A stretch of DNA of 64,000 bases from Saccharothrix ecbatanensis. Lineage in GTDB: Bacteria; Actinomycetota; Actinomycetes; Mycobacteriales; Pseudonocardiaceae. The DNA is taken from contig NZ_JACHMO010000001.1 of the NCBI RefSeq assembly GCF_014205015.1, positions 7,440,001 through 7,504,000 of the forward strand, written 5' to 3'. Under the pieces are notes generated by a model. That model saw nothing but the letters and a program-made list of their open reading frames with translations. It made no database searches and was not told the origin of the DNA. Positions 48,778-54,644 of the stretch are shown here, piece by piece; position 1 is the first letter of the stretch, and every line of letters begins with the position of its first letter. Position numbers and translations under genes: made by a program.

Positions 48778-50466
48778 GTGACGATCGAGAGCAAACCTGT
48801 CAAAGAACCATTGCCCGGTGAACCCCGAGCCGACCGGCCGGCCCGCACGGACCGCGTCGTCTTCGGTGTGGCGGCCGTGGTCGCGCTCGCGTTCGTCGGT
48901 TGGGGCATCCTCGGCACGGAGTCCCTGGCGACCGCGTCCAAAGCCGCGCTGAACTGGGTCATCAGCAACCTGGGGTGGGCCTTCGTGCTCACCGCGTCCG
49001 GGTTCGTCCTGTTCGCGCTGTGGCTGGCGGTGAGCCGCTACGGCCGCATCCCGCTCGGCCGCGACGAAGAGAAGCCGGAGTTCCGCACGGTCTCGTGGGT
49101 GGCGATGATGTTCAGCGCCGGCATGGGCATCGGCCTGATGTTCTACGGCGTGAACGAGCCGTTGTCGCACTTCGTGAAACCGCCGCCCGGCACCGTGGCG
49201 GGCGGCTCCGACGAGGCCGTGCAGACCGCGATGGCCACCACCCTGTTCCACTGGACGCTGCACCCGTGGGCGATCTACGCCGTGGTTGGCCTGGCCATCG
49301 CCTACGGCAGCTTCCGCCGCGGCCGCAGCCAGCTGATCAGCGCGGCGTTCGCGCCGCTGCTGGGCCGGCGCCGCGTCGAGGGCGGCGCGGGCAAGGCGAT
49401 CGACGTGCTGGCGATCTTCGCCACGCTGTTCGGGTCGGCCACGTCGCTCGGCCTGGGCGCGTTGCAGATCGGCAGCGGCCTCCAAGTGGCCGGGTGGCTC
49501 GGCGAGGTCGGCAACGGGATCGTCGTCGGCGTCATCGCCGTGCTGACCCTGGCGTTCGTCGCCTCGGCGGTGTCCGGCGTGGCCAAGGGCATCCAGTGGC
49601 TGTCGAACATCAACATGGTGTTGGCCCTGGTGCTGGCCGTGTTCGTGTTCGTGGTCGGGCCGACGGTCTTCGTGCTGAACCTGGTGCCCACCGCGATCGG
49701 CGACTACTTCCGCGAACTGACCGACATGGCGGGCCGCACCGCCGCGTCCGGTGGCGACGCCACCCAGACGTGGCTGTCCGGCTGGACGATCTTCTACTGG
49801 GCGTGGTGGATCTCGTGGACGCCGTTCGTCGGCATGTTCATCGCCCGGATCAGCCGTGGCCGCACGATCCGGCAGTTCGTGGCCGGCGTGATCGGCGTGC
49901 CCAGCCTGGTCAGCCTCGCGTGGTTCTGCATCTTCGGCGGCACGGCGATCTTCACGCAGCGGTCCGGCACGGATCTCGCGGGCACGGCCTCACCGGAAGG
50001 ACAGCTGTTCGGCCTGCTCGACCAGTTCCCGTTCGCCGCCATCGCCGGTGCGCTGGTGATGCTGCTCGTGGCGATCTTCTTCGTGTCCGGCGCGGACGCG
50101 GCGTCCGTGGTGATGGGCACCCTGTCGCAGCGCGGCTCGATCAAGCCGTCGAAGCCGGTGGTCGTGTTCTGGGGCGTGCTCACCGGTGTGGTCGCGGCGG
50201 TGATGCTGCTTGTCGGCGGGTCCAGCGCGCTGACCGGTCTGCAAAACCTCACGATCATCGCCGCGCTGCCGTTCATGCTGGTCATGGTCGGGCTGTGCGT
50301 GTCGCTGGCCCGTGACCTGCGCAGCGACCCGATGATCCGGCACTCGGAACGGGTGGCCGAGGTGATGGACGAGGTCACCTTGCAGTACAACCGGCCGGAC
50401 GGCGCCGAAGGGCCCGAGGACGCCGCCTACCGGGCGGTGGAGCAGGTCACACGCCGAGGCGTTTGA
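48778..50466 (+). CDS. BCCT-family transporter (glycine betaine/choline/carnitine type)
   Basis: 562 residues, twelve membrane helices. BCCT signature region WTIFYWAWWISWTPFVGMFI, ARISRGRTIRQF, and the GIGLMFYGVNEPLSHF segment. Imports trimethylammonium osmolytes in known members. GTG 48778 (VTIESKPVKE). The last 13 residues, AYRAVEQVTRRGV, recur exactly at the end of the kinase gene at 54.2 kb because of a 44-bp direct repeat. Confidence 0.93.
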   Translation: MTIESKPVKEPLPGEPRADRPARTDRVVFGVAAVVALAFVGWGILGTESLATASKAALNWVISNLGWAFVLTASGFVLFALWLAVSRYGRIPLGRDEEKPEFRTVSWVAMMFSAGMGIGLMFYGVNEPLSHFVKPPPGTVAGGSDEAVQTAMATTLFHWTLHPWAIYAVVGLAIAYGSFRRGRSQLISAAFAPLLGRRRVEGGAGKAIDVLAIFATLFGSATSLGLGALQIGSGLQVAGWLGEVGNGIVVGVIAVLTLAFVASAVSGVAKGIQWLSNINMVLALVLAVFVFVVGPTVFVLNLVPTAIGDYFRELTDMAGRTAASGGDATQTWLSGWTIFYWAWWISWTPFVGMFIARISRGRTIRQFVAGVIGVPSLVSLAWFCIFGGTAIFTQRSGTDLAGTASPEGQLFGLLDQFPFAAIAGALVMLLVAIFFVSGADAASVVMGTLSQRGSIKPSKPVVVFWGVLTGVVAAVMLLVGGSSALTGLQNLTIIAALPFMLVMVGLCVSLARDLRSDPMIRHSERVAEVMDEVTLQYNRPDGAEGPEDAAYRAVEQVTRRGV

Positions 50467-50467
50467 G
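50424..50467 (+). repeat. Left copy of 44-bp direct repeat
   Basis: Identical to 54190-54233. After one mismatch, five more bases (AGGTC) also match. It covers the 3' end of the BCCT gene and, on the other strand, a reading-frame remnant ending DLLKRLGV and stop, which is the real C-terminus of the DUF6474 gene at the other copy. Confidence 0.97.
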
Positions 50468-50644
50468 GAGGTCAAGTCCGGTCCCCGCCCTCCGCGTTCG
50501 ACGGTGCGCCGACAAAGTCGGCAGCGTGCCCGTTGGCGTCCCCTGTCGTGCTCACGGCGCAACGCACGCAGGTAGCGCGGCACGTCGACGCGGAGGGAGT
50601 CGGCTGTGGCGCCGTGGCGGCGGGCGGTCCACAGACGTCACCCG

Positions 50645-51370
50645 TCACCGCGGTGGTGCGGTCACCCTCTCGAGGACGGGAGCATGGCCGTTGTCCCGCG
50701 CGGGTGTGAGGGCGGCCCGGAGTTCGGCGAACTTCTCGCCCAACGGCCTGATCACGTTCTTCTCGACCTGGTAGTAGCTGGTCAGCGTGGCCAACGGCAC
50801 GCGGCGCAGGTACCAGCGGCCGGTGAGGTTGCACCCGATCGCGAGGTGGCTGCGGAACCCGCCGACCAACCAGCCGTCGTCCTCGTCCTCGACGGTGTTC
50901 TCCAGCCGGAAGTAGTTGAACAGGCTCTGCGCGGTGGTCCGGACGGTCTCGTCCTCGTCCTCCGGCTTCGGCTCGGCCACCCCGATCCAGCACTCCGGGT
51001 GGTCGGCGTCGCCGACGTAGGCGTCGTTGAACCCCAGCCACGGCCACACGTAGGCGATCAGCCGGACCCGGGACGTGAGCAGGGAGTCGGCGTCCTGCCC
51101 GGCGCGCACGTGGTCGGCGTCGACGTAGAAGCGTCCGAGCCAGGTCGGGGTCCACAGGTAGTACGGGTACGCGCTGTCGTCGGACAGCCGGTAGCTGTTG
51201 GCGTTGGAGAACAACTCGTTGCCCGCCAGCGGGCGCAGCCGCACCCCGTACTCCGGCAGGGCGAACCGGACCGCTAGGACTTCGAAGAACGCGCGGATGT
51301 CCCGGTAGTACTCGGTGAGCTGGTGGTACGCGGTCGCGGTCTCGGCGAGCACGTCTTCGCGAAAGATCAT
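50645..51370 (-). CDS. Orphan 241-residue protein of the inserted module
   Basis: Soluble, rich in aromatic residues (YYLWTPTWLGRFYVDADHVR; IAYVWPWLGFNDAYVGDADH; NLTGRWYLRRVPLATLTSYY) with an acidic run PKPEDEDETV. Looks like a beta-rich globular domain. Starts ATG 51370 after GCGGAGA. No family recognised. Divergent from the amine oxidase across 126 bases holding the palindrome GTTGGCCAAC (51446-51455). Confidence 0.75.
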   Translation of the reverse strand: MIFREDVLAETATAYHQLTEYYRDIRAFFEVLAVRFALPEYGVRLRPLAGNELFSNANSYRLSDDSAYPYYLWTPTWLGRFYVDADHVRAGQDADSLLTSRVRLIAYVWPWLGFNDAYVGDADHPECWIGVAEPKPEDEDETVRTTAQSLFNYFRLENTVEDEDDGWLVGGFRSHLAIGCNLTGRWYLRRVPLATLTSYYQVEKNVIRPLGEKFAELRAALTPARDNGHAPVLERVTAPPR

Positions 51371-51496
51371 CGGGTCTCCGCTCCGGCCGCACTCGGCAAC
51401 CCGTTCGGCACTGTCCGCGACGGCGACGTTACCGCAGGTTGCCAAGTTGGCCAACAGACAGTAACCATTTGGGTACATAGGGCTTACGGAGGCGAT

Positions 51497-52960
51497 GTGC
51501 TCGACCTGGCCGTGGTGGGAGCCGGGGTGGGCGGGTGCTACTGCGCCTACCGGCTCGTCACGGACACCGGACCCGGCGACGGGATCGCGCTGTTCGAACA
51601 GACCGACCGCATCGGCGGCCGGCTGTGGTCCGAACCCGTGCGCGACGCGCCGCACCTGATCGCCGAGCTCGGCGCGATGCGGCTGCACCGCGGGCTGCGC
51701 TCGGCGCTGGCCCTGGTCCGCCACCTCGGCCTCGATCTCGCACCGTTCGAGTTCGGCCGACCGGAGAACCTCGTGCACCGGCGCGGCGTCGCCATGCGCT
51801 GCCGCGAACTGCCCGGCGACCGGATCGTCGAGGCGGCCGAACGCCTCGTGCCCGGGTTCGCCGAACTCCGCCGCCGCCACCACGAGGCCGAGGAACGCGG
51901 CGACCGGCGCCGCTCCGAGTCGCTGCTGGACGTCTTCCGCGATCAACGGGACCAGACCCGCGTCAGCGGACGTCCGCTGGACGAGCTGACCTGGCCGCAC
52001 GCCCTGGACTTCGCGCTCGGCCCCGCCGCCGTCGCGTTCCTGCACGACACCGGCGGCTACGACCTCCGCCGCAGCGGGGAGAACGCGGCCACCCAGCTCG
52101 ACCTGGTCTTCCGCACCCCGCCCGACGCCGAGTACGTGACGCTGCGGCACGGCATGCAGGGCCTGCCCGACGCCCTGCACGCCCGGTTCACCGCCGCGGG
52201 CGGAACCACGCGCACCGGTCACCGGCTCGTGCGCCTGGACAAGGAAGCGGACCACTACCGACTGACCTTCACGACACCCGGAGGAGACCGGCACACCCTG
52301 GCCCGCGCCGTCGTCCTCGCCCTACCGCCGGAAGCGCTCCGCCGCCTCGACGGGCTGCCTCTCGCCCGACACCTGCGACCCGCGCTGGACGCCGTCGAAC
52401 CCGTCCCCGCGTTCAAGCTCTTCCTCGTCTACCCGCGGCCCTGGTGGCGCGAACTCGGCATCACCCGGGGGCGCAGCACCACGGACACCGCGCTCAGGCA
52501 GCTCTGGTACGGCGGGACCTGCCCCGCGACCGAGTCGACCGGGCCCGCGCTGCTCCTGGCCGCCTACCCCAGCGGCCACTCCGTCCACGCCTGGGCGCCC
52601 TGGCGCGGCGGCCCACCGCATCCCGCCGCAGAGGCCGGACACGCGGCCACAGCGGCGATGGTCGAGCACGCACACACCCTCCTCGCCCGGATGCACGACC
52701 TGCCGGACCTCGAACGCCCCCTGAGCGCGTGCCGGCAGGACTGGACCGCCGCCTGGCACGTGTGGCGCCCCGGACACGACCCCCGCGTCATCGGCCCGCG
52801 CACCCGGCAACCCATCCCCGGCGAGGCGATCCACGTCGTCGGCGACTGCTGGACCCCCGACCCCGGCTCGATCGAGGGCACGCTCGCGTCGGCCGACGAC
52901 CTCCTGCGCGTGTCCTTCGAACTGCCCGACCCGCAATGGCACACCGGCCCGCCCCGCTAA
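51497..52960 (+). CDS. Flavin-containing amine oxidase-like protein
   Basis: 487 residues. N-terminal FAD motif VVGAGVGGCYCAYRL and the second nucleotide motif DRIGGRLWS; substrate-side FAD motif near the C-terminus (IHVVGDCWTPDPGSIEGTLAS). Belongs to the monoamine/polyamine/L-amino-acid oxidase group; substrate unknown. GTG start with GGAGG upstream. mtnK-like gene follows 18 bases later, so one operon. Confidence 0.88.
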   Translation: MLDLAVVGAGVGGCYCAYRLVTDTGPGDGIALFEQTDRIGGRLWSEPVRDAPHLIAELGAMRLHRGLRSALALVRHLGLDLAPFEFGRPENLVHRRGVAMRCRELPGDRIVEAAERLVPGFAELRRRHHEAEERGDRRRSESLLDVFRDQRDQTRVSGRPLDELTWPHALDFALGPAAVAFLHDTGGYDLRRSGENAATQLDLVFRTPPDAEYVTLRHGMQGLPDALHARFTAAGGTTRTGHRLVRLDKEADHYRLTFTTPGGDRHTLARAVVLALPPEALRRLDGLPLARHLRPALDAVEPVPAFKLFLVYPRPWWRELGITRGRSTTDTALRQLWYGGTCPATESTGPALLLAAYPSGHSVHAWAPWRGGPPHPAAEAGHAATAAMVEHAHTLLARMHDLPDLERPLSACRQDWTAAWHVWRPGHDPRVIGPRTRQPIPGEAIHVVGDCWTPDPGSIEGTLASADDLLRVSFELPDPQWHTGPPR

Positions 52961-52978
52961 CCCACCGCGGAGGACACC

Positions 52979-54232
52979 ATGGACCCCACCGCCCCGAACC
53001 CCACGGACATCGCCGGCTACCTCGCCGCCGCCCCGGCCTTGGCCGCCCGTCTCGGCGGCGCCCCGGCGGACTGGGACGTGCGCGAGATCAGCGAGGGGAA
53101 CGTCAACTACGTCTTCTCGGTGCACGGCCCCGCCGGAGCCCTCTGCGTGAAGCAGGCGCCCGCGTTCGTGCGCGTCGCAGGCGCCTCCTGGCCGCTGACA
53201 CCCGAACGTGCCCGCTACGAGCACCGCGCGATGCTGGAACACCGACGGCACGCGCCCGACTACGTCCCCACCCCACTGCACTACGACCCCGCGCTGCACC
53301 TCCAGGTCATCGAGCACCTCGACGGGCACACCGTCCTGCGCGACGAGCTGATCGACGGCCGGGCACCCGCCGACCTCGGCCGCCACCTCGGCGACTACCT
53401 CGCCCGGACCCTGTTCCACACCAGCGACCTCGCACTGCCCGCAGCCCGCAAACGCCCGCTGGTAGCCGAGTTCGAGGGCAACACGGAGATGTGCGCGATC
53501 ATGGAGGAGATGGTCTTCACCGAGGTCTACCGCCCGTTCCACCGCAACCAGTGGACCGGGCCCCACCTCGACGCCGACGTCGACCGCCTCCGTGCAGACA
53601 CCGCCCTGCTCGTCGCCGTCGCGCGGCTCAAGGACCACTACCTCACCAGCAGGCAGGCGTTGCTGCACGGCGACCTGCACACCGGGTCGATCATGGTTTC
53701 GGCGCACCGGACCCACGTCATCGACCAGGAGTTCGCCTGCTACGGCCCCATGGGCTTCGACATCGGCAACCTGCTCGCCCACCTGCTCATCAGCTACTTC
53801 GCCAAGGACACGCCGGGACCGGAAACCACCGAGCAGGCCCGGTTGCTGGCCACCGTCGAGACGGTGTGGACGGAGTTCGACGCCCGCTTCACCGCCCTCT
53901 GGCGGTCCTCACCCACCGGCGACTCGTACCCGTCCGCTCTCTTCCCGCCGGGTTCCGATCTGCTGGACCACGAACGTCGTGCCTACCTCGGCAGGGTCCT
54001 GCACGACACCATCGGCTTCTGCGGCGCCGAGATCGTCCGCCGCGTCATCGGGTTCGCCCGGCCGGCCGACTTCACCACCATCCCCGACCCCGGCTACCGA
54101 GCCGCCCGCGAACGCCGGGCACTGCACCTGGCCCGCGCCCTGCTCGTCGACGACCACCACGACATCCGCGACGTCGTCACGGCCGCCCGCGCCTACCGGG
54201 CGGTGGAGCAGGTCACACGCCGAGGCGTTTGA
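52979..54232 (+). CDS. mtnK: S-methyl-5-thioribose kinase-like protein with acquired C-terminus
   Basis: 417 residues. MtnK-type motifs: SEGNVNYVF, CVKQAPAFVRVAGASWPLTP, LHGDLHTGSIM and IDQEFACYGPMGFDIGNLLA. Known MtnK phosphorylates methylthioribose in methionine salvage. No other salvage gene lies nearby, so the substrate may differ. GGAGGACACC precedes the ATG. The final 13 residues come from the 44-bp repeat and match the BCCT C-terminus, so this end is chimeric. Confidence 0.85.
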   Translation: MDPTAPNPTDIAGYLAAAPALAARLGGAPADWDVREISEGNVNYVFSVHGPAGALCVKQAPAFVRVAGASWPLTPERARYEHRAMLEHRRHAPDYVPTPLHYDPALHLQVIEHLDGHTVLRDELIDGRAPADLGRHLGDYLARTLFHTSDLALPAARKRPLVAEFEGNTEMCAIMEEMVFTEVYRPFHRNQWTGPHLDADVDRLRADTALLVAVARLKDHYLTSRQALLHGDLHTGSIMVSAHRTHVIDQEFACYGPMGFDIGNLLAHLLISYFAKDTPGPETTEQARLLATVETVWTEFDARFTALWRSSPTGDSYPSALFPPGSDLLDHERRAYLGRVLHDTIGFCGAEIVRRVIGFARPADFTTIPDPGYRAARERRALHLARALLVDDHHDIRDVVTAARAYRAVEQVTRRGV

Positions 54233-54233
54233 G
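54190..54233 (+). repeat. Right copy of 44-bp direct repeat
   Basis: Identical to 50424-50467. Here it supplies the last codons of the MtnK-like gene on the plus strand and the true 3' end (DLLKRLGV, stop) of DUF6474 on the minus strand. Confidence 0.97.
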
Positions 54234-54644
54234 CAGGTCCGCTTCCATCGCGTCGAGATCGGCCGAGACGGCGCGGTGCGCGGCTTTGCGCCGCGGTGTG
54301 GGCATGCGTTCCGCCGCCCGCACCGCGGCCAGCAGCTGCGCCAGCCGCCGCTCGGTGCTCTCGACGTACGTCCGCTCGGTGTCCCGCAGCTGGTCGAGGG
54401 CTTCACCGAAGCCGGCGATCCGGGCGTGCAGGCCCGCGCCCCTGCCCGAGTACCGGGTCAGCTGGTCGACCGGGATGCCGAGCCGTGCCGCCCGGTAGTG
54501 GTCGTAGCGGTCGCTCAGCAGGGCCGCGGCGCGGGCCGCCATCGGCGCCATCACCGGGATCAACGCCGGCGCCAGCACCTTGGCCACGCCGACGAGGTTC
54601 TTCGCCCTGCCCGGGGTGAAACCCTTGCTCTTCTCACGCGCCAT
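54213..54644 (-). CDS. DUF6474-family protein
   Basis: 143 residues: MAREKSKGFTPGRAKNLVGV, a hydrophobic Ala/Pro stretch (LAPALIPVMAPMAARAAALL), then helical segments to the end DLDAMEADLLKRLGV. Typical small protein of Pseudonocardiales; function unknown. Overlaps the 3' end of the MtnK-like gene by 20 bases in opposite orientation. Confidence 0.8.
   Translation of the reverse strand: MAREKSKGFTPGRAKNLVGVAKVLAPALIPVMAPMAARAAALLSDRYDHYRAARLGIPVDQLTRYSGRGAGLHARIAGFGEALDQLRDTERTYVESTERRLAQLLAAVRAAERMPTPRRKAAHRAVSADLDAMEADLLKRLGV

Follow-up and report, generated by a model that had tools for sequence, protein, structure and literature searches.

How gene cassettes that bring no recombinase enter bacterial chromosomes is an open question, and it is raised here by a 64,000-nucleotide window (the whole stretch of DNA analysed) of Saccharothrix ecbatanensis (assembly GCF_014205015.1, contig NZ_JACHMO010000001.1, positions 7,440,001 to 7,504,000). 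In this window a metabolic cassette, composed of a conserved protein (HYP), a flavin amine oxidase (AO), an S-methyl-5-thioribose kinase (MtnK) and the remains of a flavin monooxygenase gene (FMO), lies between a BCCT transporter gene and a convergent DUF6474 gene, with a long direct repeat at its borders. Comparison with related genomes shows that the cassette was inserted, that the host junction was duplicated, and that no recombinase is encoded in what remains. On balance, we favour the explanation that a four-gene cassette was acquired horizontally and entered at the overlapping 3' ends of the BCCT and DUF6474 genes by a recombinase-free route with a long target duplication.

A long direct repeat at two gene ends

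Our direct-repeat search found 49 of 50 bases identical between the two copies (Table 1), which are offset by 3766 bp from start to start and include a perfect run of 44 bp; the spacer between them is 3716 bp, in agreement with the 3.72 kb of an earlier note on this DNA. That note had proposed looking for the repeat elsewhere, and a 32-bp part of it (at most 3 mismatches) has exactly two matches in the whole 9.69 Mb of the genome, compared with zero hits for a backward-read control. Since the pair scores 46, and 95% of 400 random region pairs score 10 or less, chance is excluded; in a wider control 99% of 300 pairs score 13 or less, these controls holding a few outliers (maxima 176 and 220) that are perhaps near-coincident windows.

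The left copy contains the BCCT stop codon at 50466 and keeps, on its antisense strand, a DLLKRLGV* frame, while the right copy closes DUF6474. The earlier note had described both of these ends correctly. Its picture of an inserted module also stands, but it missed two features: the right copy supplies MtnK with its final codons (AYRAVEQVTRRGV), the same as the BCCT tail, and positions 50474-50644 hold the remains of a fourth gene.

Family profile searches of the three insert proteins gave no recombinase, integrase or transposase family, as the earlier note had supposed from the letters alone; an integrase adjoining one repeat copy, the mark of a tyrosine-integrase element, was thus not seen among them. 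There is likewise no signature of an insertion sequence (IS) or transposon: no transposase family matched, the 25 longest of 177 inverted pairs include none at the two borders, and the duplication measures 48-50 bp, as against the short target duplication of such elements.

Empty sites in related genomes

The DUF6474 gene is present in 38 of the 60 genomes searched, the window's own included, and in 24 of 25 genomes of the genus. Thirteen of the 23 other Saccharothrix genomes that carry it have an empty site, in which the tails of BCCT and DUF6474 overlap by 20-23 bp, the arrangement that the earlier note had expected beneath the insert. A gap of 28-217 bp separates the two genes in seven more, and the other three (G008, G021 and G016) have no BCCT gene within the 1.5 kb of flank examined; G008 carries the module.

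In a tree of the neighbouring RNase-H-like gene (RNH), the window genome (G000) and G008, probably Saccharothrix sp. NRRL B-16314, are sisters (support 100/99) inside a subclade of 11 genomes. All nine other members have the overlapping empty site and a single copy of a 27-bp core of the repeat (at most 2 mismatches), and among 390 genomes of the family this core is doubled only in G000, within a mismatch limit that G008 escapes and for which four of the 13 empty sites (G010, G011, G009 and G023) are too diverged. At the BCCT/DUF6474 site the module was found only in the window genome and G008. Two repeat copies in relatives without the module, or host genes that had never been adjacent, were named in the earlier note as observations that would speak against an insertion leaving both genes intact; the nine subclade members show one core copy between overlapping genes, and the insertion is upheld.

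The same comparisons bear on a scenario in which the region was duplicated in tandem and later lost parts, so that the module would always have been local. This history is contradicted by the empty sites, and also by the distribution of the cassette genes: MtnK has no match at 1e-40 in 22 of 25 genomes of the genus (G019 keeps a 33-residue scrap), and HYP has matches in only five of the 390 family genomes, two of which, G022 (probably S. saharensis) and G019, have it at other loci. An 845-bp locus of G008 with imperfect flanking repeats, described below, looks alike and has its gene in another order in several relatives, but we regard a purely local origin of the module as highly improbable.

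We also considered the site as an insertion hotspot and rejected this: the BCCT-DUF6474 interval of about 3.1 kb in G016 lacks the core (at most 2 mismatches), and the sole open reading frame (ORF) searched there is a Crp-type regulator. No reuse of the site by other elements was seen in the 390 genomes at that limit, which more diverged sites escape. Separately, in DUF6474 of G005 (L023, G005:C10 152089-152577) about 20 residues close to the C-terminus appear to be duplicated internally.

The same insertion in G008 and its later decay

At the same site G008 carries HYP, AO, MtnK and both repeat copies, of which 34 bp are mutually identical, with further matches interrupted by an indel; its left copy lacks the last three bases. 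The two strains differ at both borders of the insert. In the window, HYP is separated from the left repeat by about 171 bp that are missing in G008, and MtnK of G008 has its own tail and stop, which are missing from the window. Within the 171-bp stretch are the beginning and a C-terminal fragment of a flavin monooxygenase gene, which G022 has in full (FMO-like PF00743, 2.5e-61): the best match to the G022 gene, 68 bp at 79% identity, lies at 50564-50628, and a 106-bp match at 75% links the stretch to a decayed copy in G019. The remnant is single-copy in the window genome and absent in G008.

The whole FMO gene of G022, together with the gene order there (HYP-FMO and AO-MtnK), suggests that the original insert was about 5 kb long with four genes, HYP, AO, MtnK and FMO, and has decayed since. 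Different deletions would have removed FMO in the window strain and in G008, and a deletion or conversion at the right border of the window, where the two genomes differ by about 60 bp, may have left MtnK ending on the duplicated BCCT tail. The cassette of G019 is also decayed, with a whole AO gene, 30 residues of HYP, 33 of MtnK and two FMO scraps. Between G000 and G008 the ratio of nonsynonymous to synonymous divergence (dN/dS) is 0.36-0.60 in the cassette and 0.11-0.18 in the neighbouring genes, as expected under relaxed constraint; dS itself is 0.04-0.085 for the cassette, 0.195 for BCCT, 0.144 for RNH and 0.090 for DUF6474.

We did not use the cassettes of G022 and G019 as evidence on mechanism, as neither has a clean empty site: that of G022 lies beside a penicillin-binding-protein gene, just beyond which the relative G017 diverges. 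No long direct repeat was found in the surroundings of the G022 cassette.

Table 1. Coordinates of host genes, repeat copies and cassette genes in the window
Feature	Position	Strand	Remarks
BCCT transporter gene	48778..50466	+	Pfam BCCT 3.9e-179; 95% identity in G008; 3' end inside left copy; start codon chosen by us
Left copy, duplicated host junction	50424..50473		Antisense DLLKRLGV* is a leftover of DUF6474
FMO remnant (fourth cassette gene)	50474..50648	-	GTG start overlaps HYP stop, then C-terminal coding scrap
HYP, conserved, 241 aa	50645..51370	-	No Pfam or NCBIfam match
AO, flavin amine oxidase / L-amino-acid-oxidase family	51497..52960	+	Amino_oxidase 3.6e-39
MtnK, S-methyl-5-thioribose kinase family	52979..54232	+	TIGR01767 423 bits, cut-off 275; final codons from right copy
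Right copy, duplicated host junction	54190..54239		Repeat comparison
DUF6474 gene	54213..54644	-	Pfam DUF6474 1.5e-41; 3' end inside right copy

A second insertion in the same region

We compared 6.88-7.68 Mb of G000 with 800 kb of G008, counting as clean indels those with a long side of at least 300 bp and a short side of at most 60 bp; there are 26, and for few of them is the direction, insertion or deletion, established. A second, independent case was found at G000:C1 7300996-7303007 (L143:996-3007), about 137 kb to the left of the window and about 190 kb from the first insertion in the same genome. It is an insertion of 1862 bp carrying a SLFN_AlbA_2 / HATPase_c_4 gene, which has matches of at most 49 bits to Argonaute-type defence models, and is flanked by a 75-bp direct repeat of 92% identity that reaches from the last part of one gene into the first part of its neighbour. 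In G008 and the outgroup G001 this junction is present once, without the insert, and the two copies in G000 have bases in common that are missing from both genomes.

A third repeat-flanked indel, of 845 bp in G008 (L182:17563-18495, opposite G000 7258997), has imperfect flanking repeats of about 79 bp and an ORF that by eye resembles a methyltransferase; it was set aside as a local rearrangement, its gene order varying among relatives.

A direct-repeat scan of the same 800 kb in G000 returned 18 pairs. Two are the cases described here, three are at tRNA ends, two enclose a single island of about 10.7 kb, and the other 11 comprise an unclassified 87-bp pair and ten that we judged to be paralogous from common spacing or sequence. 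Among the four islands (the three at tRNA ends and the other one), in which seven ORFs were profile-searched, two have PF00589 integrases. The 10.7-kb island (G000:C1 7280844-7291593, L142) has a 43-bp boundary repeat and carries a tyrosine integrase and an FtsK-like gene. Another stretch of 5.6 kb, at G000:C1 7628397-7634036 (L159), ends at a tRNA-Ser with a 35-bp boundary repeat and has a SMODS/DncV-like nucleotidyltransferase, a candidate anti-phage defence gene.

Origin of the duplicated DNA and mode of insertion

All four repeat copies, two in G000 and two in G008, read GAGCAGGTCACACG, with a G before TCACACG where nine of nine empty sites in the subclade have a C. Because this shared G is absent from the empty sites, both copies appear to be of host type (the tail of BCCT differs among species), and the duplicated DNA most likely came from the host itself, as it would have done on both sides at the time of insertion.

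We propose that the cassette entered an ancestor shared by the window strain and G008, or entered one of the two and was exchanged later. A linear fragment would have been captured at a staggered break whose ends lay about 48 nt apart, or through a backward template switch; gap filling would then reproduce the stagger at either side, with end joining as the sealing step, for which a Ku protein is encoded in the window genome. The comparison itself shows that about 48 bp of the junction was duplicated during insertion and that both convergent genes thereby kept intact ends. With an overlap of 20 bp, both genes survive an insertion only if the overlap is duplicated, and selection would favour such outcomes.

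Several considerations weigh against this mechanism, which is reconstructed from its products rather than observed. In 24 of the 26 clean indels no repeat exceeds the score below which 95% of random pairs fall, so that such differences do not usually arise here by long duplication. The cassette's low dS, though near the DUF6474 value, hints at later exchange instead of plain vertical descent, and the shared base could also be an effect of conversion between the copies. Finally, two of the islands described above, with flanking repeats of 42-43 bp, carry tyrosine integrases, so an integrase that has since disappeared would be expected to leave a comparable scar.

The last point leads to the main rival, site-specific integration by a tyrosine integrase that was lost or acted in trans, the BCCT/DUF6474 3' ends being attB and the repeats attL and attR. 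A length of 44-50 bp and a location at gene ends are typical of att-type repeats, and two tRNA-end islands without an integrase (among three complete ORFs and a 129-aa piece of a fourth) indicate that integrase-less att islands may exist. However, beyond the profile results for the three insert proteins, G008 has no room for another such gene, and no recombinase was found among the four ORFs searched besides AO, HYP and MtnK at the G022 cassette locus. None of the other 389 family genomes has a doubled core, within the limit already given, and the second insertion has an unrelated 75-bp repeat. Integration should moreover have brought the donor's base with the attP half, unless later converted, whereas all copies have in common a base missing from the nine empty sites. 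The earlier note had likened the insert to integration at gene ends; the insert itself is borne out, and the likeness names one possible mechanism, to which we give a minor but real chance.

Alternatively, a circle already bearing about 48 bp of the junction from a strain of the same lineage may have integrated by homologous recombination, or a two-ended recombination may have had the same result. Near-perfect direct repeats of host-like sequence are what this predicts, and the exchange between lineages suggested by the low cassette dS would suit it. About 48 bp of homology is, however, short for RecA-dependent exchange, and the proposal merely shifts the first insertion to another strain; we consider it quite unlikely.

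Extending recombinase-free capture beyond this locus is more speculative. Actinomycetes with non-homologous end joining (NHEJ) might recurrently capture foreign cassettes without a recombinase, duplicating 50-80 bp of target, so that genes could enter between overlapping neighbours and leave both unbroken, with two such events in 800 kb of the window genome; we offer this as a tentative idea that is rather doubtful at present. A role of NHEJ in DNA acquisition is posed as a hypothesis in the portion available to us of a Streptomyces ambofaciens paper (PMC5124664).

Cassette proteins and their distribution

HYP is a rare protein: in a database of 5.8 billion protein sequences, 37 relatives were found. 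Its 20 genomic loci in genome_contigs range from actinomycetes (Streptomyces, Streptomonospora, Planomonospora) to myxobacteria (Myxococcus, Corallococcus) and Chitinophaga, with one record labelled Comamonas; AO adjoins it in 19 of them (the exception, L062, lies on a cut contig) and MtnK is present in 11. Carriage of HYP by phages or plasmids was considered and rejected, as viral_contigs and phages hold no relative and the one plasmid record, from Embleya, is 3.1 Mb long. Defence models gave no match for HYP or MtnK and a single 35-bit match of AO to a desaturase-named model.

The solved chains nearest to AO are 8t8a and 8jt7, codes that occur in a paper on L-arginine oxidase (PMC11694665), and AO belongs with the L-amino-acid oxidases. 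MtnK passes the equivalog cut-off of TIGR01767. All four genomes tested have a homologue of mtnA that falls below the curated cut-off, so that a link to methionine salvage is conceivable.

Relation to known systems and significance

The insert is of a known pattern, insertion with long target duplication, found by comparing Helicobacter pylori 26695 with J99 (Nobusato et al. 2000, as cited in PMC1643837, PMC3031569, PMC4978471 and PMC2869330). As far as these citing papers describe it, both rest on close relatives, with a block of genes lying between long direct copies of a site that the relative has only once; long flanking repeats, single-copy relatives and, in our reading of the pattern, no recombinase are found here too. 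According to the same accounts, the cargo in H. pylori is often, though not obligatorily, restriction-modification genes, whereas here a Ku-bearing actinomycete has received a metabolic cassette where convergent 3' ends overlap, and many empty sites fix the direction. No actinomycete case is named in the titles and abstract openings of the literature matches listed (15 of 19 for the exact name of the pattern), a Rhodococcus island paper (PMC12915292) being judged by its listing alone.

Two further comparisons come from papers available in part. Transposed genes of Arabidopsis are non-transposon genes that also have long flanking direct repeats, 13 of 18 of which match the orthologous site of a relative (PMC2869330), but they are eukaryotic and for some of them a parent locus can be identified. 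Small variable segments of bacteria are flanked by direct repeats in about 10% of cases, and illegitimate recombination was proposed for many (PMC2884548); the repeats are discussed there as a route of deletion, whereas here the direction is insertion.

Integrative elements that use gene 3' ends as attB have direct repeats of 40-50 bp and restore the host genes. The present insert resembles them in both respects and differs in that no integrase was found and both copies look like host sequence.

The locus therefore bears on the question of how recombinase-free cassettes enter bacterial chromosomes. It offers a defined system for asking whether long target duplications are the work of Ku/LigD or of template switching, and it shows a way for a dense genome to take in genes at overlapping gene ends.

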